Virus record (IMG/VR): IMGVR_UViG_3300036864_000136
Location: 1 to 45,756 of that record
Source: a virus
Length of the DNA stretch: 45,756 nucleotides
Direction: 5' to 3' (one strand)
The notes beneath the pieces are model-generated. The model was not told the DNA's origin. It did no database searches and saw nothing but the letters and a program-made list of their open reading frames with translations. This document shows, in pieces, positions 7,570-45,756 of the stretch. Position numbers and translations under genes: made by a program. The first letter of the stretch is position 1, and the number at the start of each line of letters is the position of its first letter.

Positions 7570-7590
7570 ACTAGCTTCGCGTCTGGTTGT

Positions 7591-7637
7591 GGGGGCGGAT
7601 TGTGGGTGTTTTAAAACCCCATCATCCGCCCCCTTTA
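7591..7637 (+). terminator. Rho-independent terminator after capsid gene
   Basis: GGGGGCGGAT at 7591-7600 pairs with ATCCGCCCCC at 7624-7633. An inner GGGT/ACCC pairing extends the hairpin, and a short T-rich tail follows. It probably lets much capsid transcript stop here and so raises capsid dosage over the genes behind it. Confidence 0.85.
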
Positions 7638-7654
7638 ATTATATCTGGAGGAAA

Positions 7655-8137
7655 ATGACACAAGCACAGTCACTACAGACAATGATGCAGGGAGCGTTTG
7701 TTCCCGTTGACGCTGTAAATGGTGTTTACGCTATGCAGGTTTCTGGAGCTACAGCCGGAAGCCAGGGCGTCCCAATTGAAACTTCTATTCCTGTCGCGGC
7801 GCGCGTAACTTCTATTACTGACACTGCCACCGCTCCTGTTACAACCCCCGGAGTCGGTGCAGCAATTTCAACTACAACTTCACTTCCTGCTGGAACTTAT
7901 GAAGTTGTAGTCAACTCGATGATTACCGGAACTCCGGCAGATGCAGATGTTCCGAATATGCGTCTCCTCATTGGAGCGACGCCAATTACGCGTATTTTGA
8001 ACCCTGGTGGAGCGGTAATTTCAACTGCGAAAGTTAAGCTCGATACAGCTGGTGGAATTCTTTCAGTTGTTGCCGTGGCTGCGGGAACTTCTGGAGCAAA
8101 GTACTGGGCTCAAATCATTGCGACAAGGATTAACTAG
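7655..8137 (+). CDS. Probable head decoration or minor virion protein
   Basis: A 160-residue protein from ATG 7655 behind TGGAGGAAA. It is rich in Thr/Ala/Val/Gly with alternating small hydrophobic residues (TTSLPAGTYEVVV), an all-beta sandwich look. Its place straight after the capsid suggests a decoration or minor structural protein. The frame extends upstream through the terminator, but the ribosome site fixes the start. Confidence 0.7.
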   Translation: MTQAQSLQTMMQGAFVPVDAVNGVYAMQVSGATAGSQGVPIETSIPVAARVTSITDTATAPVTTPGVGAAISTTTSLPAGTYEVVVNSMITGTPADADVPNMRLLIGATPITRILNPGGAVISTAKVKLDTAGGILSVVAVAAGTSGAKYWAQIIATRIN

Positions 8138-22743: not shown

Positions 22744-23328
22744 TTAGCCCTTCAGCTCTTCCTCAAGAAGTTCGGCAGCAGACTTTGCCGGGTTAGAAGT
22801 TGTCTGCGAACTGAACTCGTCATTTCCGTTGCCGTCACCGATTGGCTTCATGGCGTTGAGTCGGAAGTCCCAGAAACCGTCATCGGTTCGACCGACCTTA
22901 ATCTTTGCCAGGGCGCGACGGCCCTCCATCTTCTTACCGTTGACGGAGCCGTATTCATCCTTCGCGAACCCGAGAGCCTTGTAAAGCTCCTTCAGGTTGT
23001 ACATTGCCTGCTGCTCCTTCTCACCCTCCGGGTCCCACGGAATCTGAGAGCGGAGAGCGAGCGGGACAGGAAGCTGAACCCACATTCCATTTCCAAGACC
23101 CTTGGAAACAAAGCTTCCCTGGTACTTGGCCTCATCGACGGCAAACTTCACCATCATGCCAATCTTGTCCTTGTTCTTGGTGACCTTTACAGCACCAACT
23201 TCAACAACAAAGACAGCGTGGAAGTCATTGCCGAACCCGAACGGGTCGTCGGGAATGTCGTTCGCGTTGATTCCGGCCTCATCAAGAAAGCCGCCCTCAA
23301 AGTCAATCTCATCGCCGTACTCAGACAC
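22744..23328 (-). CDS. Probable ssDNA-binding/recombination accessory protein
   Basis: A 194-residue protein from GTG 23328, overlapping the stop of the ATPase gene by 8 bases. A beta-rich core (AVFVVEVGAVKVTKNKDKIG, GMWVQLPVP, RRALAKIKVGRT) is followed by an acidic low-complexity tail, KSAAELLEEELKG. An OB-like barrel with acidic tail next to a Sak4-type ATPase is the usual place of a phage SSB partner; this is inference from layout, not from a known motif. Confidence 0.55.
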   Translation of the reverse strand: MSEYGDEIDFEGGFLDEAGINANDIPDDPFGFGNDFHAVFVVEVGAVKVTKNKDKIGMMVKFAVDEAKYQGSFVSKGLGNGMWVQLPVPLALRSQIPWDPEGEKEQQAMYNLKELYKALGFAKDEYGSVNGKKMEGRRALAKIKVGRTDDGFWDFRLNAMKPIGDGNGNDEFSSQTTSNPAKSAAELLEEELKG

Positions 23329-24127
23329 TTGTTGATTCCTTCCACTTTTCGATGTGGGCCACAAAGTCGTCATCGGAGACGACTTCACTCGGAAAATGGT
23401 ACCGAGTTTTTACAGCGACGCCATTTCCATTCGGCATCACTTGAAGCACACGCTTATTCGGGCCATCCATTTTCAAGTAAGCCATTACAGAGACATACTT
23501 GTTGATTTCTTTGAAGGCCGCAGCGTGTGCATCAGCCCTCGTATTTGCGCCGGGTGTGAGCTTATCCCCGAGCCGCTGATGCGACAACATTACAACACTG
23601 CATCGAGTGAGGTTTGCAATGTCCGTAAGTACGGGCCGAATTCTTTGCTCCGACACCAGATAGTCGGGGCGTCCCGCAGCTTCAGCAGCAACTTTACCTT
23701 TCTCTGTTGCTGCTCCACTTTTCACAATCTGCTGGAGTTCGTCGGAAATCATTCCTGAGACGGTGTCCAGAACAATCGTGTCGAAAGGTTCGTCGTCATA
23801 ATGACGAAACTTGCCTTCTTCGATGAGCGGGATCATTCTCCGCGTCCAATCCCAGTAGCCACCGTTCATGTAAGATTCTGGCGGAGTAAAGGGAATGACG
23901 CGGACGTTTTTCTTAATCTCTGGGTGATTCGTTAGAGAAGAAGAGCCAGCCATCTCGTTTGTGATGAGGGCAATTCTTTTTCCCAACCTACAGGCGAGGA
24001 CAGTTTTGCCTAGGCCAGCTTCAGAGAAGATAAGAACAACCTTGGCGGTAATTTCATCTGGCCTCTTGGACTTCTTGTCTAGCCACTTGAGCATCAACTC
24101 ATCAAGTGACCTGTCAATTTGAGCCAT
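23321..24127 (-). CDS. Sak4-like RecA-fold ATPase (AAA_24 type)
   Basis: A 268-residue protein. Walker A is FSEAGLGKTVLA at residues 34-45, Walker B is TIVLDTVSGM around 120, and VVMLSHQRLGD follows as a sensor-like strand. Sak4 proteins promote single-strand annealing in phage recombination and are usually next to an SSB-like gene, as here. It stands in a run with the Cas4-like nuclease, suggesting an end-processing and annealing module. Confidence 0.78.
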   Translation of the reverse strand: MAQIDRSLDELMLKWLDKKSKRPDEITAKVVLIFSEAGLGKTVLACRLGKRIALITNEMAGSSSLTNHPEIKKNVRVIPFTPPESYMNGGYWDWTRRMIPLIEEGKFRHYDDEPFDTIVLDTVSGMISDELQQIVKSGAATEKGKVAAEAAGRPDYLVSEQRIRPVLTDIANLTRCSVVMLSHQRLGDKLTPGANTRADAHAAAFKEINKYVSVMAYLKMDGPNKRVLQVMPNGNGVAVKTRYHFPSEVVSDDDFVAHIEKWKESTSV

Positions 24128-25377: not shown

Positions 25378-25650
25378 TCAGTAACAGGGTGGGCAAAAGA
25401 ATTCTCGTTCATAAACCTTGCCGTTCACAACAAAACACTTAGGTTGCCATGAAGGACCAAAGTTCATGATGAACTCGTTTCCGCATTCTGAGCAAATTCT
25501 TAGAACTAGATCAGGTGCGGGTTTGCCACAGGCAGAGTGTACCATGTGGCCTGTGTTACTGTCAAGCTGCCAATCTGGCCTGCCGTTAAAAACAGAGTGG
25601 TAGCAGGCAACTTCTGACCGCTCTTCAAAACTCAGGTGAGTAACTTTCAC
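25378..25650 (-). CDS. Zinc-binding-like protein
   Basis: A 90-residue protein from GTG 25650, overlapping the preceding stop. ICSECGNEF in the middle and FFCPPCY at the C-terminus supply two CxxC pairs, with further Cys/His between, a likely zinc ribbon. No enzymatic motif. Confidence 0.65.
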   Translation of the reverse strand: MKVTHLSFEERSEVACYHSVFNGRPDWQLDSNTGHMVHSACGKPAPDLVLRICSECGNEFIMNFGPSWQPKCFVVNGKVYEREFFCPPCY

Positions 25651-27550: not shown

Positions 27551-27759
27551 TACTCGGGCATGCCATTTGCGTGCCAGTCTTCATGACGAAATTGAAGTTC
27601 GTCAGAGTAAACAATATCTGTCGCGCTTTCTTGCCACCTACAATCTACATGGGTGCAAGTGAGGTGGTATTTTGGCCCTTCGGCGCTAAAAGTTGTCCTT
27701 CTGTTAATCTCTGGCACGTCACTTAAAGGTTCACTCCGAAATTCCAGCCACGTTGTCAC
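27550..27759 (-). CDS. Small C2H2 zinc-finger-like protein, copy A
   Basis: A 69-residue protein from GTG 27759, overlapping the TGA of the gene before. YHLTCTHVDCRWQE, then QFRHEDWHANGM gives Cys-x4-Cys ... His-x3-His as in copy B next to it. The stop shares a base with the start of copy B, so the pair is probably co-translated. Confidence 0.65.
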   Translation of the reverse strand: MTTWLEFRSEPLSDVPEINRRTTFSAEGPKYHLTCTHVDCRWQESATDIVYSDELQFRHEDWHANGMPE

Positions 27760-27959
27760 GGATGACACCCCATACAAACAAGGTAGTAGGTTTTAGTTTC
27801 AGCGTGGTACCAAAATATCAGCCGGGTTATGTCAAAGTAGTACCGACAGAAAGGACAATCGCCGCCCTGTCGTTCAAAAAGAAACTGCTTAAACCTTCTT
27901 CTTTTACGCGAGTTCCAATCCCCCGGCTTTCGCCTAGACAACGTAAGTCCCTGGTTCAC
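27756..27959 (-). CDS. Small four-Cys zinc protein
   Basis: A 67-residue basic protein from GTG 27959. RRKPGDWNSRKRRRF is followed by CPFC and, 22 residues later, CMGC, resembling a truncated HNH-type zinc ribbon without the catalytic His-Asn-His. It overlaps the GntR-like gene by 26 bases. Confidence 0.6.
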   Translation of the reverse strand: MNQGLTLSRRKPGDWNSRKRRRFKQFLFERQGGDCPFCRYYFDITRLIFWYHAETKTYYLVCMGCHP

Positions 27960-29212: not shown

Positions 29213-29368
29213 TCACCTGTTGTTCGGAAAGCCCTTAGGGCTTTTAATGATGTGACACTTTCGCTTATGCCAAATAACCAGCGACTTGTACTTAGTTCCA
29301 ATCTGGATTTCTCCCCATGGAGTTGGAATGTAGATCTTAGTTCCAACCTTTGCGTAAAGCTTCTTCAT
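29213..29368 (-). CDS. Small basic protein (51 aa)
   Basis: ATG 29368 overlaps the stop of the SNF2 helicase gene by one base. The sequence MKKLYAKVGTKIYIPTPWGEIQIG has an SH3-like small beta-barrel pattern and is net basic. Likely co-translated with the helicase; its role is unknown. Confidence 0.65.
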   Translation of the reverse strand: MKKLYAKVGTKIYIPTPWGEIQIGTKYKSLVIWHKRKCHIIKSPKGFPNNR

Positions 29369-31437
29369 TAACCCTCCAGGAACTTCCTCATAGCCTCAGC
29401 CAAGTCGACATCGGCTTGGAAACCATCGAGCATGTTCTTCTTCTGCTCCTGAATCGCATCGATCAATTCAGTTGCTGTGCCTTCACAATGGAGAATGTGC
29501 ACGATGGATTCGTACTCCGAGTCGATGCGTCGGAGCCGGTCAATTGTTTGCTCTTCCTTGCCGGGATTCCATTCCCGCTCGATGCAAAGAAGTTGCTGAG
29601 CACCATTCAAGTTGAGGCCAACTTGTGCAGTCTGGTACTGACAAATCAGCACATCATACTGATGCTCGCCAACCTTTGTGTGGTTGGTATTGAAGTCATC
29701 GATGTAGCCACGGCGAACATGATCCGGCACGTCACCGGTGATTTTAGCGACCCTGAGGTTGTTCATCTCGCACCGACGCTCAAGTTCTGCGATAACACTC
29801 TTGAACATCGAGAAGACAACAATTCGGTCGCCATCTTCTACAGCCTCATTGACAATTTGTTCTGACTCGTCCATCATGATGGACTCACCAATTGGCGGAG
29901 TCCCCGGAGGCGGAAAGATGACGCGAGGATCAATGCACGGTCCTGGAAGTCCCTGCTCATCGAGACATTCTGGATCGTGCCAACATCCCTTGATCTGAAT
30001 TCCATCCGGCCAACTTGCAGCCTGACGCATTCGCGTGTACCAGGCGAGAACTGCTTGAGTTGTCATTTGCTCCGTGTCAGAGAAAGCAAGCTTCGCTTTG
30101 TCGCGGAGTTCTGTGATGAACTTCGTCTGACGTGGGTACTTCTCCGGATCGAGCTCAAGCCAGTGATGTTTGATTTCCTGGGGCGGCATAACAACTCCAG
30201 CACTTTCACGTGTGCGAGCCGTGTACTTCATGTCTAGCTTCTTGAGGAGCCTATCAGATCCGCCAGACCCAAAGGTGTAGACGTACTTGTTTGTCGCGTA
30301 GTCGTACTCTTTTGTGCAGTAATCATCGAGGAAGTTCTTTTCTGACGGGAACATTTCTCGATCGATCATATTGAGAGGAGGCCAAATCTCAGCTGGCTTA
30401 TTGAGAATTGGTGTACCCGTTGCTACGTAGAAATTCTTGACCGAGCAGAAATCGCTGAACTGTTCGGCTCGAAACTCGCAGGCTGAACAAATGGTGTCGA
30501 AGCCACGAACATCGAAAGTCTGATGGCCACAACTTGGGCAACGGTTCTCGGCAAAGACAAGTTCACGAACCTTCTGAGTGGTGACAGACTTGGCACCCTT
30601 TAGAACATGACCCTCGTCACAGAAGATGGCGTCGAAACAACAATCCTTGAGCTTCTCATGGATTGAATTGTCCTTGCGCCAGACTTCATAGTTGGTGATG
30701 ACGATGGCTTCTGGCATGTGCTTGATAACTTCAAGGAGTTCAACCTTAATTCCCTTGAGAGTTTGATTCAGCACATGCACGAAAGTCGGGTTGGTCCACT
30801 GCTTAAAAGCTCGCTCAAAGTCTGGGAGCACCGATTTTGGCGTGAAGATAAGAACCTTGTTGGCCTTACCTTGAGCACGCAACAAGTCGATGGTCATAAT
30901 CATTTCAAGCGTCTTGCCCAGGCCAGGCTTGTCACCGAGAATTCCCCGCTCGGCTGCAACGAGTCGATGAGCTCCGTCAAGTTGGTGAGGGAGTGCCTTC
31001 TTACCGTTGACACCGATGCGCCAGGGAAATTCCTTAGTTCGTTCATCGAGAAGCTTTTGTTGGGTGAGGTACCTTTCGCGTGAAGCCAGTTCAGCTAGAA
31101 GTCGTAGCCGCTCACGTTCGTAAGCTTCCTTGTTACGAAAGTCGAGTCGGTTGATTTGAGTGTTGCGAGAAATAGCTTCATCAATTGGCCGACGCTCGTG
31201 AAGAAGCACGTCAATCTGACGGCGGAGTTCTGCGATTTGTCCGTTGAGGAGAGCCTGAGAGATTTCGAGAGCGTCATTCTCGTTATCGCGAAGAGTGATG
31301 ACACCTTCTATGTCATCAATTCGTACGTTCAAAAAAGCCAAACGATCGAAGTCTTCGTTCGGCATCAACTTGCTGAGGCGAGCCTCACTCTCGGAGAATT
31401 GTTCTTCGAACGCTGACATGTCGAGTCGTTCGGGCAT
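29368..31437 (-). CDS. SNF2/SF2-type DNA helicase or translocase
   Basis: A 689-residue protein. Motif I is GDKPGLGKTLEM (about residue 172), motif Ia FTPKSVLPDF, motif II DEGH, motif III GTPILN. The second RecA lobe has VVFSMFKSV, ITGDVP and QVGLNLNGAQQL, then a Q-x-x-x-R-x-x-R motif as EEQTIDRLRRI. A zinc knuckle (CPSCGHQ ... CSAC) is inserted in lobe 1, and the first 130 residues are coiled coil. Phage SNF2 proteins are thought to aid replication or recombination. It follows a chain of tiny zinc and HTH genes. Confidence 0.88.
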   Translation of the reverse strand: MPERLDMSAFEEQFSESEARLSKLMPNEDFDRLAFLNVRIDDIEGVITLRDNENDALEISQALLNGQIAELRRQIDVLLHERRPIDEAISRNTQINRLDFRNKEAYERERLRLLAELASRERYLTQQKLLDERTKEFPWRIGVNGKKALPHQLDGAHRLVAAERGILGDKPGLGKTLEMIMTIDLLRAQGKANKVLIFTPKSVLPDFERAFKQWTNPTFVHVLNQTLKGIKVELLEVIKHMPEAIVITNYEVWRKDNSIHEKLKDCCFDAIFCDEGHVLKGAKSVTTQKVRELVFAENRCPSCGHQTFDVRGFDTICSACEFRAEQFSDFCSVKNFYVATGTPILNKPAEIWPPLNMIDREMFPSEKNFLDDYCTKEYDYATNKYVYTFGSGGSDRLLKKLDMKYTARTRESAGVVMPPQEIKHHWLELDPEKYPRQTKFITELRDKAKLAFSDTEQMTTQAVLAWYTRMRQAASWPDGIQIKGCWHDPECLDEQGLPGPCIDPRVIFPPPGTPPIGESIMMDESEQIVNEAVEDGDRIVVFSMFKSVIAELERRCEMNNLRVAKITGDVPDHVRRGYIDDFNTNHTKVGEHQYDVLICQYQTAQVGLNLNGAQQLLCIEREWNPGKEEQTIDRLRRIDSEYESIVHILHCEGTATELIDAIQEQKKNMLDGFQADVDLAEAMRKFLEG

Positions 31438-31439
31438 TG

Positions 31440-31586
31440 TTACTTACCTTTCTTGTTCTTTTTGCAGGAGTCGCACAAACCTACAAAACCTAGAACAATT
31501 GACGGCGTGAAACGACGCTTACACTTAAAGCAGTTCATTGGGCGTGGGGTTTCAGTGAAACCGAAACCTTTGTTCTTCTTAGCCAT
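31440..31586 (-). CDS. Small zinc-ribbon protein (48 aa)
   Basis: Starts MAKKNKGFGF inside the end of the gene upstream. CFKCKRRF and GLCDSCKK form two CxxC pairs 18 residues apart, with Lys-rich ends, so a basic zinc ribbon. It immediately precedes the helicase gene and may be a partner. Confidence 0.7.
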   Translation of the reverse strand: MAKKNKGFGFTETPRPMNCFKCKRRFTPSIVLGFVGLCDSCKKNKKGK

Positions 31587-31788
31587 CACCCTCCTCTGAA
31601 AGCTTCTCAGGAAACCTGCCGAGAAAATGAGCCTTACTAATGATGAAAGTCTTTTCAGCCTCAACCGAAAAGAAACAAACAAACTTCTCGCCAAACCTGT
31701 TTTTCTTCACTCGAATAACTCTCGCCGTACCATCATTACCGTTACCATAAACTTCACGGCCATAGACTTTTCTGCCATTTACTGTCAC
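31579..31788 (-). CDS. Small basic protein with conserved RNA leader
   Basis: A 69-residue protein from GTG 31788, with AAGGGGGAAA at the right distance. It begins TVNGRKVYGREVYG and is beta-rich and basic. The frame is open much further upstream (ATG 31914), but that stretch coincides with the folded element at 31806-31958, which has a relative elsewhere, so it is read as leader not protein. Function unknown. Confidence 0.6.
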   Translation of the reverse strand: MTVNGRKVYGREVYGNGNDGTARVIRVKKNRFGEKFVCFFSVEAEKTFIISKAHFLGRFPEKLSEEGDG

Positions 31789-31805: not shown

Positions 31806-31958
31806 GCGGGCTTATTTCCCATTTGACAGGGGGCCCTCGCTCCATGACACGGCAGGCCACTACCCGCCAGGCCCCTTTACGCTCCTGCGTCGCTCCAAGA
31901 AACCTGTCCGGCATTGTCCAGCCTAAGTCATTCCGCCCCCTGTCAAATGCGCGCCCGC
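31806..31958 (-). ncRNA. Structured element R2, relative of R1 at 44740-44900
   Basis: On the minus strand a 15-bp perfect stem (CATTTGACAGGGGGC, plus-strand 31935-31949, with GCCCCCTGTCAAATG, 31820-31834) is capped outside by GCGGGC/GCCCGC (31953-31958 and 31806-31811). Inside lie GGAATGACTTAGGCTG, CGACGCAGGAG and GGAGCGAGG. R1 has the same three blocks in the same order and the same two-part stem with other bases. It stands just before a ribosome site. Cis-acting leader RNA is the main reading; the strand follows the gene order. Confidence 0.6.
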
Positions 31959-31961
31959 TCT

Positions 31962-32174
31962 TTAGTTGTCTAGAACTTCGACTTCGTTGAACTCGCTTCG
32001 TTTCATTGTCTTCGAAGCTAGAAAGAACTGTCGCCACCTCGTTGCCATGCGACAATCTTCTACGAGTGGGCTGAACTTTGACGCTTGGTCTAGGATCGAC
32101 GCTAGACTTTTGATTTCAGCGTCAGTTAGCTCGAACTTGCAGGCGTCGACTACGTCTTTCTTGCGTTGGGCCAA
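31962..32174 (-). CDS. Small helical protein
   Basis: A 70-residue protein from TTG 32174, overlapping the stop of the previous gene. It begins MAQRKKDVVDACKF and is a chain of charged helices (LTDAEIKSLASILDQASKF). It ends just before R2, so R2 follows its stop on the transcript. No family was recognised. Confidence 0.6.
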   Translation of the reverse strand: MAQRKKDVVDACKFELTDAEIKSLASILDQASKFSPLVEDCRMATRWRQFFLASKTMKRSEFNEVEVLDN

Positions 32175-32753: not shown

Positions 32754-32793
32754 GCCGGACAACCTGGTCTTAAAGTTTACCAGGTTGTCCGGC
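32754..32793 (-). promoter_or_regulatory. 15-bp perfect inverted repeat before HTH gene
   Basis: GCCGGACAACCTGGT at 32754-32768 pairs with ACCAGGTTGTCCGGC at 32779-32793 around 10 bases. No T-run follows, so it is not a classic terminator. Its place between two genes, directly before an HTH gene, suggests an operator or an attenuating hairpin. Confidence 0.7.
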
Positions 32794-32805
32794 CTCAGAA
32801 GTCTG

Positions 32806-33012
32806 TTACAGAATTACCGCGTTCTTCAACTTGTCCACAGAGATCATTGCAAACTCTGCTGGAGAATCTGACGAGTTGAGAACTTCGAGTACAGCGGCAC
32901 TTTCACATGTAGCTCTTACGAAGAACTCTTTGTGACCTTTGCCGCTACCACCGTTTGCGTTGTGTTCTTTCATGTACACGCGAAATGTGTACAGTTCGAA
33001 CTGTTCGCTCAC
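32806..33012 (-). CDS. Small hypothetical protein
   Basis: A 68-residue protein from GTG 33012, just after the stop of the gene at 33017. The sequence EQFELYTFRVYMKEHNANGGSGKGHKEFFVRATCESAAVLEVL has a strand-loop-strand-helix pattern with a Gly-rich loop. No family was recognised. Confidence 0.6.
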   Translation of the reverse strand: MSEQFELYTFRVYMKEHNANGGSGKGHKEFFVRATCESAAVLEVLNSSDSPAEFAMISVDKLKNAVIL

Positions 33013-34350: not shown

Positions 34351-34454
34351 CGAACGATCTCTCCCTTTTCGTTCACCCATGCCAGAAGTTCTTTTGACCA
34401 GTAGAAGCGGCTTGCATTGTTGGGTTTAGCTTCAGTGTTCATTTCGTCGCTCAT
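34347..34454 (-). CDS. Very small protein (35 aa)
   Basis: From ATG 34454 behind GGGAGGGAAGC the frame reads MSDEMNTEAKPNN, then FYWSKELLAWVNEKGEIVR. The end looks like a short wing or hairpin (leucine plus KGEIV). It ends in an ATGA overlap with the next gene, and the strong ribosome site supports it. Confidence 0.6.
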   Translation of the reverse strand: MSDEMNTEAKPNNASRFYWSKELLAWVNEKGEIVR

Positions 34455-34497
34455 GCTTCCCTCCCTAAGTTCAAGCCCAACCCCCCAACTTTCGAGG

Positions 34498-34512
34498 GGA
34501 TGAACTTCATCC
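34498..34512. promoter_or_regulatory. Short perfect palindrome
   Basis: GGATGAA-C-TTCATCC at 34498-34512, in the gap before the small gene at 34347. With one centre base it cannot form a good RNA loop, so a dimeric DNA-binding site is more likely. Confidence 0.35.
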
Positions 34513-34700
34513 TAGGGTTCCATTTCAACTGAAATGTGAACGCCCCTAAAGGCGACTCCAATTGTAGCTACCCCTAGCAACATTGCGACCAATACGAGCA
34601 CTTTGGAAAAAGTATTGAAGGTTCCTTGAGCGCTCTCTGATCTTCTTGAGGTTAGTTGTCGCTGGCTTTGCTTCGGACGTCGGTGTTTGCCTTTCGCCAT
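34512..34700 (-). CDS. Small membrane protein
   Basis: A 62-residue protein. The N-terminus is highly basic (AKGKHRRPKQSQRQ), then a transmembrane stretch VLVLVAMLLGVATIGVAF, then a short polar end. The start touches the stop of the gene upstream. The orientation would be N-terminus in. Role unknown. Confidence 0.6.
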   Translation of the reverse strand: MAKGKHRRPKQSQRQLTSRRSESAQGTFNTFSKVLVLVAMLLGVATIGVAFRGVHISVEMEP

Positions 34701-35587: not shown

Positions 35588-36310
35588 TCAACCCTCACTC
35601 CTGATGTAATCAAACACCAACTGAAAAAGCTCAGGATCTTTCTCCTGCAATTGGCGCATTGCGTAAGCAATCTGGTCACGATATTGCTTGTACCAAACTG
35701 GACTGTTCAAGAAGCTGTCGATGATGTTAAGTGTGAACCTCAAGCTTTCGGCTACGACGTGAAGTTCACGGTTCAAACCTTTTACCGACTCGTCGTAGCC
35801 TGGGTTCATCGAAGAAACTACCACTGACGCCAACTTACGCCTGATGGTGTGCTGAACTTTCTCGGCAAGCAGGTCAGCGTTCTTTGACAGCGGTTTTCTA
35901 TTCGGATCTGAAACAATCCTCAAGAAATCTTCAACTGACTTAAGTTCGCCAGCAAATGGAATCAACCTTTGACCGCCATCGTCAAAGGTTGCGCCTTGCT
36001 TACCGTACAAAGTTGCGTTGCGCTGACGTCCGTAAGTTTGGAGGAAGCCTTTATCAACAAGATCTTCTAGCGCACGTCGAAGTGTGCTGTCAGCAATTCG
36101 CTCGTTCTTTGGCTTTAGCTTTTCGTTGACTCGTTCCAAAATCTCAGTGACTGTTAGCTTCTCATTGTCTCCGAAAACTTCGAACGTCAAGCTTTGATTG
36201 CTCAGCTTGACGTGTTCCTTTTTGTTTACGGTGACCACTTTACGGCCGACTCCTCTTAACTTTGATTGTTGCCCAGGTTCCGGGGTTGTGAGGTATGTCC
36301 GTTCCTTCAC
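35588..36310 (-). CDS. Winged-helix DNA-binding protein
   Basis: A 240-residue protein from GTG 36310. Residues 45-105 (LTVTEILERVNEKLKPKNERIADSTLRRALEDLVDKGFL) form a winged helix with a clear recognition helix and wing. The rest is helical. It is first behind a 270-base regulatory gap, so an operon regulator or replication initiator is plausible. Confidence 0.65.
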   Translation of the reverse strand: MKERTYLTTPEPGQQSKLRGVGRKVVTVNKKEHVKLSNQSLTFEVFGDNEKLTVTEILERVNEKLKPKNERIADSTLRRALEDLVDKGFLQTYGRQRNATLYGKQGATFDDGGQRLIPFAGELKSVEDFLRIVSDPNRKPLSKNADLLAEKVQHTIRRKLASVVVSSMNPGYDESVKGLNRELHVVAESLRFTLNIIDSFLNSPVWYKQYRDQIAYAMRQLQEKDPELFQLVFDYIRSEG

Positions 36311-36855: not shown

Positions 36856-37830
36856 TTACTTCTTTGCCTGAGAAGCGGGGGCGGCTGTCTTCTTAGCCGG
36901 GGAAGTTGCAGGCGCCGACTTTACTTCTTCCTTGTTTTCCGGAACGTTCGCCTTCTCAGGCTGGTTGACACTTTCAGTGCTAGAAGGGGTTTCAGGCGTG
37001 TCAGCCACCTTTGCCTTCACGGTGAGCTTCACGGTCTTGGTTTCCGTCGCGTTCTCAGAAACCTTGATTTCCTTCGTGAAGTCGAAGGTCTTTGTGATTT
37101 CCGCAGTCTTTACGTAGCGGAATTCCTTACCGATTGCTGAGAAGTAGGCCTCCTCAATTTCTTCACCGGTGACCTTGTTCTCCGGGAAATTCTCAGCACC
37201 GAATTCAGTGCTCAGAGAATCTGCCGCGTAACGGAAGTTTGCCTTACCGTCACGGTGAATGTTTCGGCCGTTGATTTCGAATCCACCAATACGCGTTGCG
37301 TAACTTGTGGTGGACGTTCCTGCCTTTCGGCCGCGAGTGTTCTTGAGGCTGTCAACTTCGGGCATCAGAGAAATCAGGCCGCCAGGCACCGAATTTCCAT
37401 TGACTGCCAGCATTGCATCGATCACTGTGACCATTGCAGCCGCACCAGCAATTGCCTTGCTGATTGTCTCGGAACTTTCGTTGACTGCCTTGCGAACATT
37501 CTTCGCGTCCTCTTCAGAAAGAGGAGTCGGAACCTTTGTGCGACCGAATTCTCGCAGCTCCTTCAAAAGTTCCTCGTACTGCTCAGCTACTGCGTCGAAC
37601 TTTGCTTCGACTTCGGAAAGCTTCGGGTCATTCTTTGCGTGAAGCTTCCAGAGAGAATCAATGTACTCCGTGTTGTTCGGGTCCTGCGCACGTGCAGCAT
37701 TAATCTGCGCTACACGCTCATTGTTCTTCAGAACGAGGTTGAAAGCCTCATTCCACTTTTCTCGAATCGGCTTCACTGCCGCGTCCGGAAGACCAGTCGC
37801 CTGCAATGCCTCTTCGAATGTGATTGCCAT
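36856..37830 (-). CDS. Hypothetical protein with histone-like Lys/Ala/Pro tail; own promoter and terminator
   Basis: A 324-residue protein from ATG 37830 with AAAGG upstream. Residues 1-110 are helical (coiled coil around FDAVAEQYEELLKELREF). Residues 165-230 hold a RGRKAGTSTTS turn and a conserved-looking FEINGRNIHRDGKANFRYAAD. The last 60 residues are Lys/Ala/Pro/Glu-rich and end SPAKKTAAPASQAKK like an H1 tail. Isolated by a clear -10 box and a strong terminator, it is probably made in quantity and may bind nucleic acid. No family was recognised. Confidence 0.65.
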   Translation of the reverse strand: MAITFEEALQATGLPDAAVKPIREKWNEAFNLVLKNNERVAQINAARAQDPNNTEYIDSLWKLHAKNDPKLSEVEAKFDAVAEQYEELLKELREFGRTKVPTPLSEEDAKNVRKAVNESSETISKAIAGAAAMVTVIDAMLAVNGNSVPGGLISLMPEVDSLKNTRGRKAGTSTTSYATRIGGFEINGRNIHRDGKANFRYAADSLSTEFGAENFPENKVTGEEIEEAYFSAIGKEFRYVKTAEITKTFDFTKEIKVSENATETKTVKLTVKAKVADTPETPSSTESVNQPEKANVPENKEEVKSAPATSPAKKTAAPASQAKK

Positions 37831-37877
37831 CGTAGTGCCTTTCGTGTGGAGGTTCCCTGTGTTGCTTCCCACTGGAG

Positions 37878-37886
37878 ATTCTAGCA
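37878..37886 (-). promoter_or_regulatory. Extended -10 promoter of the 324-aa gene
   Basis: On the minus strand TGC-TAGAAT (plus-strand 37878-37886) is a good extended -10. It places the transcript start about 40 bases before ATG 37830. A weak -35 GTGACC lies further up. Confidence 0.55.
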
Positions 37887-38259
37887 CAGCAAGTAGCAGG
37901 AACGGTCACGAGGACTGTCACCCAAAGGTAAAGTCTCGCGGCCGAACCTGATGTTTACTGCACTAAGCACACGCTTAGCGGCAACTTGTCAAGATAGTCA
38001 CACAAGGATCACCTAAAGATGTCGGTGTGGACCATTGACAAAGTTTGAAAGTTGGCAGCGCTCAGTCAGTGCACTGCAAAATGATTTCACTATTGAGTTA
38101 ACAAGTAACAATCGCTCTGCACCAAAGTTCAGAACTTCAGTGGCTACGCATCCATGGGACTCGAACCCACTGCAATGCGTTGCGGCGACATGGGCTAATT
38201 TACCCCTCGCCTGGCCAATGTCCAAAAGTCCACTCGCAATTCCATCCGCGAGCTAAGAA
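37887..38259 (-). other. Gene-free region: promoters, palindrome and tRNA-like element
   Basis: No gene is visible in about 370 bases. It holds a perfect CTAAGC-ACAC-GCTTAG palindrome (37963-37978), a minus-strand TTGACA near 37986, a partial tRNA-like fold (38146-38211, listed apart) and, at its right edge, a terminator. It may be the main control region for the 324-residue gene. Confidence 0.5.
38146..38211 (-). tRNA. tRNA-like element, acceptor not canonical
   Basis: A T-arm ATGGG-ACTCGAA-CCCAC (plus-strand 38154-38170; minus GTGGG-TTCGAGT-CCCAT) is typical. A D-arm-like GGC...GCC with GAGGGGTAAATTA lies at 38193-38211, and the middle could form an anticodon-like stem. The expected 7-bp acceptor does not pair and position 33 is not U. 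Instead ACGCAT (minus) just before the T-arm pairs with ATGCGT just after it, like an acceptor/T-arm minihelix. It may be a degenerate tRNA, a mimic or an attachment-site relic. Confidence 0.35.
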
Positions 38260-38283
38260 AAAACCCCGGTTTCCCAGGGTTTT
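38260..38283 (-). terminator. Rho-independent terminator
   Basis: AAAACCC (38260-38266) pairs with GGGTTTT (38277-38283). On the minus strand the hairpin is followed by TTCTTAGC after T-rich stem bases. It ends the small-gene operon at 38304-39187. Confidence 0.75.
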
Positions 38284-38303
38284 CTCATTGGCCTAGAACG
38301 ATG

Positions 38304-38558
38304 TTAGTCGCGCGAAATCTCGATGGTCTCAATTGCACGCCCGAGAGAATCGATCACATCAATTGACATGCTCGAAACTCCCATCTCCTGAATCGCATGA
38401 CGGAAGTAGCCCTGCGCGTGGATCGCGTAATCAAAAGCGTCCAACGGGCTGGCGTCTTCCAATGTGGCGATGATTGATGAACCAGGCTCGCGCCCTGACA
38501 GAACGTACGTCGTAACAATGACGCGCCAGTCAGTGACATTCGAGAGAGTGCGTACCAT
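38304..38558 (-). CDS. Small hypothetical protein
   Basis: An 84-residue protein from ATG 38558, with AAAGGTG six bases upstream. VIVTTYVLSGREPGSSIIATLEDASPLDAFDYAIHAQGYFRHAIQEMG has a strand, loop and two helices. It is last before a terminator and preceded by a GTGGCC stem-loop. Function unknown. Confidence 0.65.
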   Translation of the reverse strand: MVRTLSNVTDWRVIVTTYVLSGREPGSSIIATLEDASPLDAFDYAIHAQGYFRHAIQEMGVSSMSIDVIDSLGRAIETIEISRD

Positions 38559-44050: not shown

Positions 44051-44734
44051 ATGTCTGCTGTACCGACGCCGAACTATGGTCTAAACAAAGTTGGCGACCC
44101 GCGTGCTGATTCTATGGCAGATTTCACTACCTGGCTGAACAATAACTGGGATGAAATCACAAATGCTGCCGCTCCCCCAAGTGGTACAACACTCCCCCAG
44201 TCTGGGACTTATAATGTTGGTGACAGGTTCTACAAGTCTGACACCAAGTCGATTTACATTCTAGTCGTCAAAGATGCTAACTGGGGTTGGTATTGGCGAC
44301 CCATCCATGACGCTATTTCACCGTGGTTCACAGTCCCAACGACGGCAATGAAAATCACAGGCTGGACTTTGAATCCGACACCAGCTAACCCGTTTCAAAT
44401 CGCCCTCGACAATCGCGGCCGAGTCTACTGGCGTGGAATCATTGGCTTCACCGCTGGCAACATGTCACGTGGAGTCTCCTACGGACTCTTCGGTTGCCCG
44501 CCAATTGGTATCAGGCCGCGACTCGCTGGAACTTTCATGCTAGGTCATGAAACTTTGGCCGTCAGCACATCAGCAACAAGCTTGCAGGGGTACCAAGGTG
44601 CTCGCGTATTTATTCCTAATGATGGTGTTTCCGACACAACAATGCGTTGCTTTGGTGGGAACGCTGACTTCAATCGAATTCATCTTGCGGGAGTTGCGTA
44701 CGCCGCAGGATCTAATATCTTCTGGGATGTTTAG
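44051..44734 (+). CDS. Tail protein with NWD N-terminal module, copy 3
   Basis: A 227-residue protein beginning on the base after copy 2. NYGLNKVGDPRADSMADFTTWLNNNWDEIT is the third version of the module; the C-terminus is again beta-rich with GRVYWRGIIGF and RPRLAGTFML strands. Three such genes in tandem suggest a heterotypic spike or variable host binding. Its stop is followed at once by element R1. Confidence 0.65.
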   Translation: MSAVPTPNYGLNKVGDPRADSMADFTTWLNNNWDEITNAAAPPSGTTLPQSGTYNVGDRFYKSDTKSIYILVVKDANWGWYWRPIHDAISPWFTVPTTAMKITGWTLNPTPANPFQIALDNRGRVYWRGIIGFTAGNMSRGVSYGLFGCPPIGIRPRLAGTFMLGHETLAVSTSATSLQGYQGARVFIPNDGVSDTTMRCFGGNADFNRIHLAGVAYAAGSNIFWDV

Positions 44735-44915: not shown

Positions 44916-45047
44916 GTGAAAGGTAGATGTCCAGAGTGTGGAAGTACGGCAACTAAATCTGGAGGGAAAATTTGGTGTGACGATCCTGATTGCGCTTACG
45001 TTTTTCTAGATTCTACAGAGGAGGATAATTCCCCCCCGGCAGCGTAA
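44916..45047 (+). CDS. Zinc-ribbon protein upstream of and overlapping terL
   Basis: A 43-residue protein from GTG 44916 behind AAGGAGGATC. CPECGSTATKSGGKIWCDDPDC is a classic CxxC...CxxxxC ribbon. It ends DNSPPAA, stopping 10 residues beyond the point where the terL frame is already open. A run of seven C at 45031-45037 lies in the overlap, so a one-base slip here would join the two proteins. Confidence 0.65.
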   Translation: MKGRCPECGSTATKSGGKIWCDDPDCAYVFLDSTEEDNSPPAA

Positions 45048-45756
45048 AATTGGTAGTCTTCATGACGCGTTTGCAGATTTGAGTGAGTCACTTGTCCGAG
45101 TTGCAACTTTCCCAGATATCAATAGTTACATCCCTCACCCTAAACAAAAAAGATTTCATTCCTCACCCGCGCGGACTCGTCTATACATTGGAGGAAACCG
45201 CTCAGGAAAGACTACGGGAGGAATTGTTGAAGATATCTGGTGGCTCACTCGTGAACACCCTTACAGGAAAATTCCTGCTCATCCCATTGCGGGACGAATT
45301 GTTTCTGTTGACTTCATCAACGGCATTTCAAAAATCATCATCCCCCAACTCAAGCAATGGATCCCCCCAAGCAAACTCAGGGGTGGGAGTTGGTTTTCTG
45401 CTTACGACGCCGGGGATCGAGTTCTAAACTTTGACAACGGCTCTTTTGTCGAGTTGATGTCTTACGACCAGGACCTAGACAAGTTCGCCGGTACCAGTCG
45501 TGACTTTATTCACTACGATGAAGAGCCGCCGAAAGATATCTTCACTGAGTGCAAGGCTCGATTGATTGACCGCAAAGGTTCGTCATGGATGACAATGACC
45601 CCCGTCGAAGGAATGACGTGGATCTTTGACGACATCTATGAGCCTGGAATTCTCGGCGATAGTAATATTGCAGTCATCGAAGTTGACATGGCAGAAAATC
45701 CACACCTAGACAAAGAAGAAATCGACAACTTCCTTGGTGGCCTAGACGAAGACGAA
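45028..45756 (+). CDS. terL: Terminase large subunit, N-terminal part (partial)
   Basis: The ATPase half of the packaging motor. Walker A is LYIGGNRSGKTTGGI (base 45181), the adenine-binding-like PHPKQKRFH precedes it, Walker B is FIHYDEEPP (45508), and a coupling-like WMTMTPVEGMTW follows. The frame is open from 45010 and has no ATG/GTG; TTG 45079 has no ribosome site, while AGAGGAGG at 45017 would serve ATT 45028. The start is therefore uncertain. The frame runs off the window end and continues at base 2. Confidence 0.85.
   Translation, partial: MPPRQRKIGSLHDAFADLSESLVRVATFPDINSYIPHPKQKRFHSSPARTRLYIGGNRSGKTTGGIVEDIWWLTREHPYRKIPAHPIAGRIVSVDFINGISKIIIPQLKQWIPPSKLRGGSWFSAYDAGDRVLNFDNGSFVELMSYDQDLDKFAGTSRDFIHYDEEPPKDIFTECKARLIDRKGSSWMTMTPVEGMTWIFDDIYEPGILGDSNIAVIEVDMAENPHLDKEEIDNFLGGLDEDE
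45630..45756. repeat. 127-bp exact terminal repeat of bases 1-127
   Basis: The last 127 bases equal the first 127 base for base, inside terL and without any structural hallmark of a biological end. A length of exactly 127 matches a common assembler k-mer, so this most likely marks a circular or terminally redundant genome that was cut open. Unique length 45,629 bp. Confidence 0.9.

Follow-up and report, generated by a model that had tools for sequence, protein, structure and literature searches.

The HK022 put RNA occurs as two structured copies, one per operon, located just past the early promoters, and the ERIC and REP-BIME sequences are dispersed, transcribed, intercistronic palindromes positioned beside gene ends. 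Rods between co-transcribed genes can also be substrates for RNase III, and such sites need not conserve their loop sequences. In phage T7, the R1.1 rod between genes 1.0 and 1.1, which has an asymmetric 4/5 internal loop, is cut by RNase III (PMC6121014), and in Streptomyces coelicolor RNase III cuts the rpsO-pnp intergenic hairpin on both sides of a 4/4 loop (PMC10126417).

The two RNA elements described here, designated R1 and R2, are encoded in a 45,756-base virus record (the window) that has a 127-bp direct end repeat and is therefore a closed genome. As with the T7 sites, they are internal-loop hairpins between co-transcribed phage genes, present more than once per genome. R1 and R2 are, however, about 150-170 nt long, have only two copies, conserved loops and a fixed position after stop codons, and their cleavage is only predicted. 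The S. coelicolor hairpin is likewise intercistronic, has an internal loop and comes from the likely host genus of the R1/R2 phages, but is a single housekeeping locus and is likened to R1/R2 by architecture. ERIC and REP-BIME are resembled in behavior by a probable Streptomyces chromosomal relative, but differ in sequence, size and host, and the phage R1 and R2 are fixed at two orthologous places. Like put, R1 and R2 are a pair of structured phage RNAs with one copy in each operon, but they appear to lie mid-operon, after stop codons, and differ from put in size and sequence.

Structure of R2 and its homology to R1

In the initial annotation, R2 was described as a minus-strand element with a 15-bp perfect stem and an outer GCGGGC/GCCCGC stem around the loops GGAATGACTTAGGCTG, CGACGCAGGAG and GGAGCGAGG. 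Direct reading of the minus strand confirms these stems and loops and their location (Table 1), and the predicted fold of the minus-strand RNA (-80.5 kcal/mol, z = -6.06) is more stable than that of all 200 dinucleotide-shuffled sequences. The plus strand folds less well (-60.1, z = -3.57). R1 has the strongest RNA fold in the entire window and has an additional 17-bp outer stem, P0, so that its full extent is larger than first noted. The helices of R1 and R2 had been reported to match by position but not by sequence and this is the case, as the two elements align through common loops with stems that differ in sequence. Covariance models recover both, the sole further match in the window being the complement of R2, and R2 is a true homologue of R1.

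Table 1. Locations of R2, R1 and adjacent genes in the window
Feature	Position	Strand	Basis
R2, whole structured RNA element, including the outer stem (31953-31958/31806-31811)	31806..31958	-	Fold z -6.06; covariance model 126.0 bits; covariation
R2 P1 5' strand, CATTTGACAGGGGGC	31935..31949	-	Read from sequence; covariation
R2 P1 3' strand, GCCCCCTGTCAAATG	31820..31834	-	Read from sequence; covariation
R2 P2 5' strand, ATGAC, preceded by GGA (31932-31934)	31927..31931	-	Covariation
R2 P2 3' strand, GTCAT; GGA and the purine bulge GCGAGG come next	31844..31848	-	Sequence; covariation
R2 apical loop, CGACGCAGGAG	31882..31892	-	Kept in most members, swapped in several
ORF ending just upstream of R2 (TAA 31964-31962)	31962..32174	-	ORF list
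Small ORF (GTG) just downstream of R2, not conserved in relatives	31579..31788	-	Comparison with relatives
SNF2-family helicase gene, conserved downstream of every R2-type copy	29368..31437	-	Pfam SNF2-rel_dom 8e-25; synteny; alignment
R1, homologous element before the terminase, with extra outer stem P0	44740..44900	+	Covariance model 102.6 bits; fold z -7.1
ORF (probably tail-associated) ending just upstream of R1	44051..44734	+	ORF list
Terminase large subunit frame, running over the circular junction to 934	45010..45756	+	Homologue L126 matches Pfam Terminase_6N

Overall, the element forms a quasi-continuous hairpin rod, about 50-70 bp long, that is interrupted at fixed places. Outermost is P0 in R1-type copies or a short GC stem in R2-type copies, followed by P1, often UUUGAC.../...GUCAAA. 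P1 is separated from P2 by a 5-6-nt purine bulge in the 3' strand, with the sequence GAGGGA or a variant of it, then by two G-C pairs and a GNA/GNA loop of 3x3 nt. Inward of P2 are UA, P3 (NGC-U-GG/CC-U-GCN), which carries a U-U mismatch, a long P4 and the apical loop; the pairing details given for the bulge and mismatch are our reading of predicted folds. The apical loop is often GACGCAGGA, yet is replaceable, with an unrelated hairpin in its place in locus L168. The GNA/GNA loop, the GAGGG(A) bulge and UANNCU remain constant while the stems change. An H-type pseudoknot is possible in R1 and in two other members (L001, L112), but the nested P3/P4 rod is the minimum-energy structure throughout.

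R2-type copies exist in long and compact forms (L188, L189, L190, L192, L201:7512-7654). The compact copies do not have the P1/P2 internal loop at the usual place, and have a GGGAG-containing asymmetric loop located outside, rather than inside, the TTGAC stem. Reading TTGAC...TANNCT as a promoter was rejected, as the spacing is 15 in long copies and 8 in compact copies.

Evidence for an RNA family

Homologues in viral contigs were located with degenerate loop patterns, many hits to which were due to chance, and sets of 12 to 19 such elements from contigs of uncultured phages were used to build covariance models. A terminase scan yielded 46 loci, about a dozen of which have the element immediately before terL. 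RNAalifold, applied to 12 sequences, predicted both P1 and P2 with many compensatory pairs. In a MAFFT alignment of 12 sequences that was unfitted to any structure (A5), 24 of the 38 base pairs exhibit two-sided compensatory change, a level reached in none of 500 shuffles, and paired cells constitute 83.8%, as compared to 69.1% in shuffles and 37-51% when slid. The corresponding values for a model-fitted alignment of 16 strand-correct rows (A8), which by its fitting leans toward structure, are 90.7% paired cells and two-sided change at 33 of 38 pairs. For P1, such change is present at 11 of 13 model pairs in the fitted A8 and at 7 of 13 in the unfitted A5. All five P2 pairs covary, with up to four pair types each. 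An earlier 19-row alignment (A6) holds two antisense rows and was set aside. All 19 members fold better as the transcribed strand than as its complement, and the sense-strand rows of the fitted alignment contain 64 G-U versus 6 A-C cells, a count biased by the fitting. The R1/R2 element is under selection at the RNA level.

There is no match in the window to Rfam 15 at the curated threshold, and the phage loci give only chance hits at permissive E values. BLAST searches with R1, R2 and one related element (L103) against 50,697 phage records returned nothing meaningful, and a literature search found no paper in which the element is described. R1 and R2 represent a previously uncatalogued, strongly structured RNA family.

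Location relative to genes

In all 19 copies, an ORF on the same strand stops 9-25 nt before the start of the model, and the element is therefore intercistronic, or located in a 3'-UTR, rather than coding sequence. In the window, only a few bases separate the upstream stop codon from the outer stem. The next gene usually starts a few tens of nucleotides past the element, and for R2 the gap between its end at 31806 and the GTG at 31788 is 17 nt. R1 always adjoins terL or the small leading gene of terL. Based on the ORF list, both copies follow a co-directional gene and are positioned kilobases into blocks of genes. As every copy is directly after a stop codon, the 3' end of the upstream gene is suggested to matter as much as the downstream gene. 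R2 was originally described as preceding a small early gene. A small ORF is indeed adjacent, but the conserved neighbor is the SNF2 helicase gene further downstream. Separately, the window has ATT at 45031, where relatives start the terminase with TTG or ATG; there is no ATG, GTG or TTG at this position and the terminase start codon is therefore unusual or located elsewhere.

Distribution among phage genomes

Whole-record searches located exactly two copies in the window and the same number in each of five other records (46.0-46.7 kb); the two are on opposite strands, separated by 13-15.4 kb. The seventh carrier, from a Streptomyces griseosporeus assembly, is a circular contig of 46,429 bp whose end repeat measures 132 bp. 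Its R1-type copy scores 124 bits and its R2-type copy is weak, scoring 18.6 and 32.7 bits with the first and second models, respectively. All seven carriers are complete or near-complete, although not every one is formally closed: five show end repeats, one shows a 20-bp match and the remaining one shows none. In all seven, one copy is directly before terL and the other before a SNF2-family helicase gene, with zero to three small ORFs between the R2-type copy and the helicase gene. The SNF2 proteins of the other carriers share 48-67% identity with that of the window and the elements are at orthologous positions. A fragment (G007) has an R1-type copy and an unscored rod upstream of SNF2. At neither place was a match found in three complete relatives of 45-47 kb with terminases 61-67% identical, and the cultured relatives DS1 and Jasmine do not have the element. 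The carrier phage group probably infects Streptomyces. Two relatives that do not have the R1/R2 family (L213, L214) have plain long hairpins in gaps upstream of the SNF2 gene, and an intercistronic hairpin therefore recurs near this helicase gene without R1/R2 sequence.

A probable relative in Streptomyces chromosomes

The phage model also identified a match, at 35.9 bits, on the S. griseosporeus chromosome. This is a dispersed hairpin rod of ~180 bp, present in 121 of 199 Streptomyces genomes, often in several copies; it also occurs on some plasmids and, across the class, in 16 of 246 genomes. It was found in no phage record searched, and Rfam returned only chance hits and no family. The rod is sharply bounded on its left, and its flanks are unrelated. 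Fifteen copies were examined, and 8 of them begin 7-45 nt past a long ORF on the same strand. Six of the upstream proteins were scanned, with one match to a type II restriction enzyme, one to methyltransferase/PD-Lambda-5 and one weak match to PDC-M03A, the last in a protein that, from its sequence, is presumably HipA-like. Some chromosomal copies are followed by a further conserved non-coding stretch that ends near GTAGAGAAAG (L203:4200-4360 and L241-L260).

The phage and chromosomal models recover each other, and the chromosomal rod and individual phage members have CCATTACGCT, CGGGCAGGTTT and CCTGCCCGKTAGTGCC in common. Sequence without structure gives weak support (nhmmer best E 0.015). 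A generic-rod artefact was considered for the chromosomal hits and rejected. True members reach up to 30 bits in antisense, but the chromosomal elements are strand-specific, scoring 19-36 bits in one orientation and falling below threshold in the other, and the reciprocal model recovers nothing but phage elements in 497 kb. Common descent of the phage elements and the chromosomal rod is likely, although not proven. A further step, for which we would give rather low odds, is that they constitute one superfamily of 3'-UTR rods that marks host accessory or defense-like genes and that phages have adopted at two control points, with one host factor acting both on host defense transcripts and on the phage messages for packaging and helicase. 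An uncatalogued RNA family is found at two decisive points of the phage program, the packaging and structural genes and the helicase operon, and is tied to a culturable host genus. With the probable relative located beside restriction and toxin-like genes, this raises the question of whether 3'-UTR rods in Streptomyces control accessory or defense transcripts, and whether phages use the same handle.

Possible functions

We tentatively favor R1 and R2 being paralogous cis-acting RNAs that function in message processing or stability, as RNase III-type elements. They would be transcribed within long phage messages, and the most likely factor to cut or bind the rod would be RNase III, the double-strand-specific nuclease of the host. 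R1 would then divide the message between the late genes upstream and the terminase and structural genes, R2 would do so between the upstream minus-strand genes and the SNF2-helicase operon, and the resulting message ends could acquire their own stability. Both elements have the long imperfect duplex with an internal loop, between co-directional genes, of an RNase III site. This function is favored because the intercistronic rods with internal loops in T7 and S. coelicolor are RNase III-cut, and because one carrier contig comes from a Streptomyces assembly; the plain hairpins near the helicase gene of relatives without the family are also in its favor. Neither element resembles an intrinsic terminator, as the sequences after them, GAACUAAGGAGG for R1 and GACAAAAGGGGG for R2, contain no U run. 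Against RNase III, the element is at only two of many gene junctions, the compact copies do not have the usual P1/P2 internal loop, and the retention of loops that RNase III would not need, while stems vary, suggests sequence-reading by some factor.

Such a factor is central to the main alternative, a less probable one, in which a phage or host protein binds the RNA in both operons, either as a translational operator or in a put-like, RNA polymerase-modifying antitermination into the structural and helicase/replication genes. Exchange of stems around constant loop motifs is as expected for a protein-recognized RNA, and in complete genomes the two copies are both present or both absent. The initial annotation had proposed one regulator or RNA-binding protein for the early gene and the terminase region. 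The pairing of the two loci is retained in seven genomes and absent from three, a distribution compatible with a single regulator. Six gene families (7589-8134, 22747-23388, 25381-25650, 27553-27777, 35591-36310 and 36859-37887 in the window) occur in every one of the six other carriers tested and are missing from three non-carriers, but these carrier-correlated proteins have no recognizable RNA-binding domain. The elements, moreover, appear to be mid-operon, right after a stop codon with no obvious promoter adjacent, and the apical loop can be replaced by an unrelated hairpin.

It is improbable that R1 and R2 are old, fixed insertions of an ERIC/REP/attC-like palindromic DNA element, whether mobile or domesticated, with a DNA-level function or origin as an insertion or recombination hot spot. 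The chromosomal relative, with its dispersal, sharp boundary, unrelated flanks and frequent location just past restriction, methyltransferase or HipA-like genes, is consistent with this origin, but several non-orthologous copies per genome are seen only for that relative and not in the phages. The two phage positions are orthologous despite the divergence of the SNF2 proteins, and strand-asymmetric folding and G-U tolerance point to RNA. Still more improbable is an active structured RNA freed from the message, such as a packaging RNA near terL, a ligand-binding switch or a trans-acting small RNA. The constant proximity of R1 to terL and, on inspection of folds, the alternative pairings of the P4 3' strand in several members would fit such an RNA, but the second copy precedes a helicase gene, the relatives with similar terminases do not have the element and there is no match to an Rfam riboswitch or ribozyme. 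The probability that the element is part of a protein-coding frame is negligible, as only R2 is free of stops in one frame, which runs on into the small ORF downstream, whereas the other 18 of 19 copies have stops in all three frames and conservation tracks pairing, so that translation, proposed at the outset as grounds for refutation, does not refute the RNA reading.

Other structured regions in the window

Upstream of R2, an intergenic region on the minus strand (32770-32830) contains a perfect 15-bp hairpin, GCCGGACAACCTGGT/ACCAGGTTGTCCGGC, without a T run, and there is another structured leader at approximately 34437-34596 on the same strand. ARAGORN found no tRNA in the window, although a tRNA-like T-arm, GTGGGTTCGAGTCCCAT, is present inside a strongly folded intergenic stretch at 38080-38320 on the minus strand; an attachment site or the remains of a tRNA could account for it.
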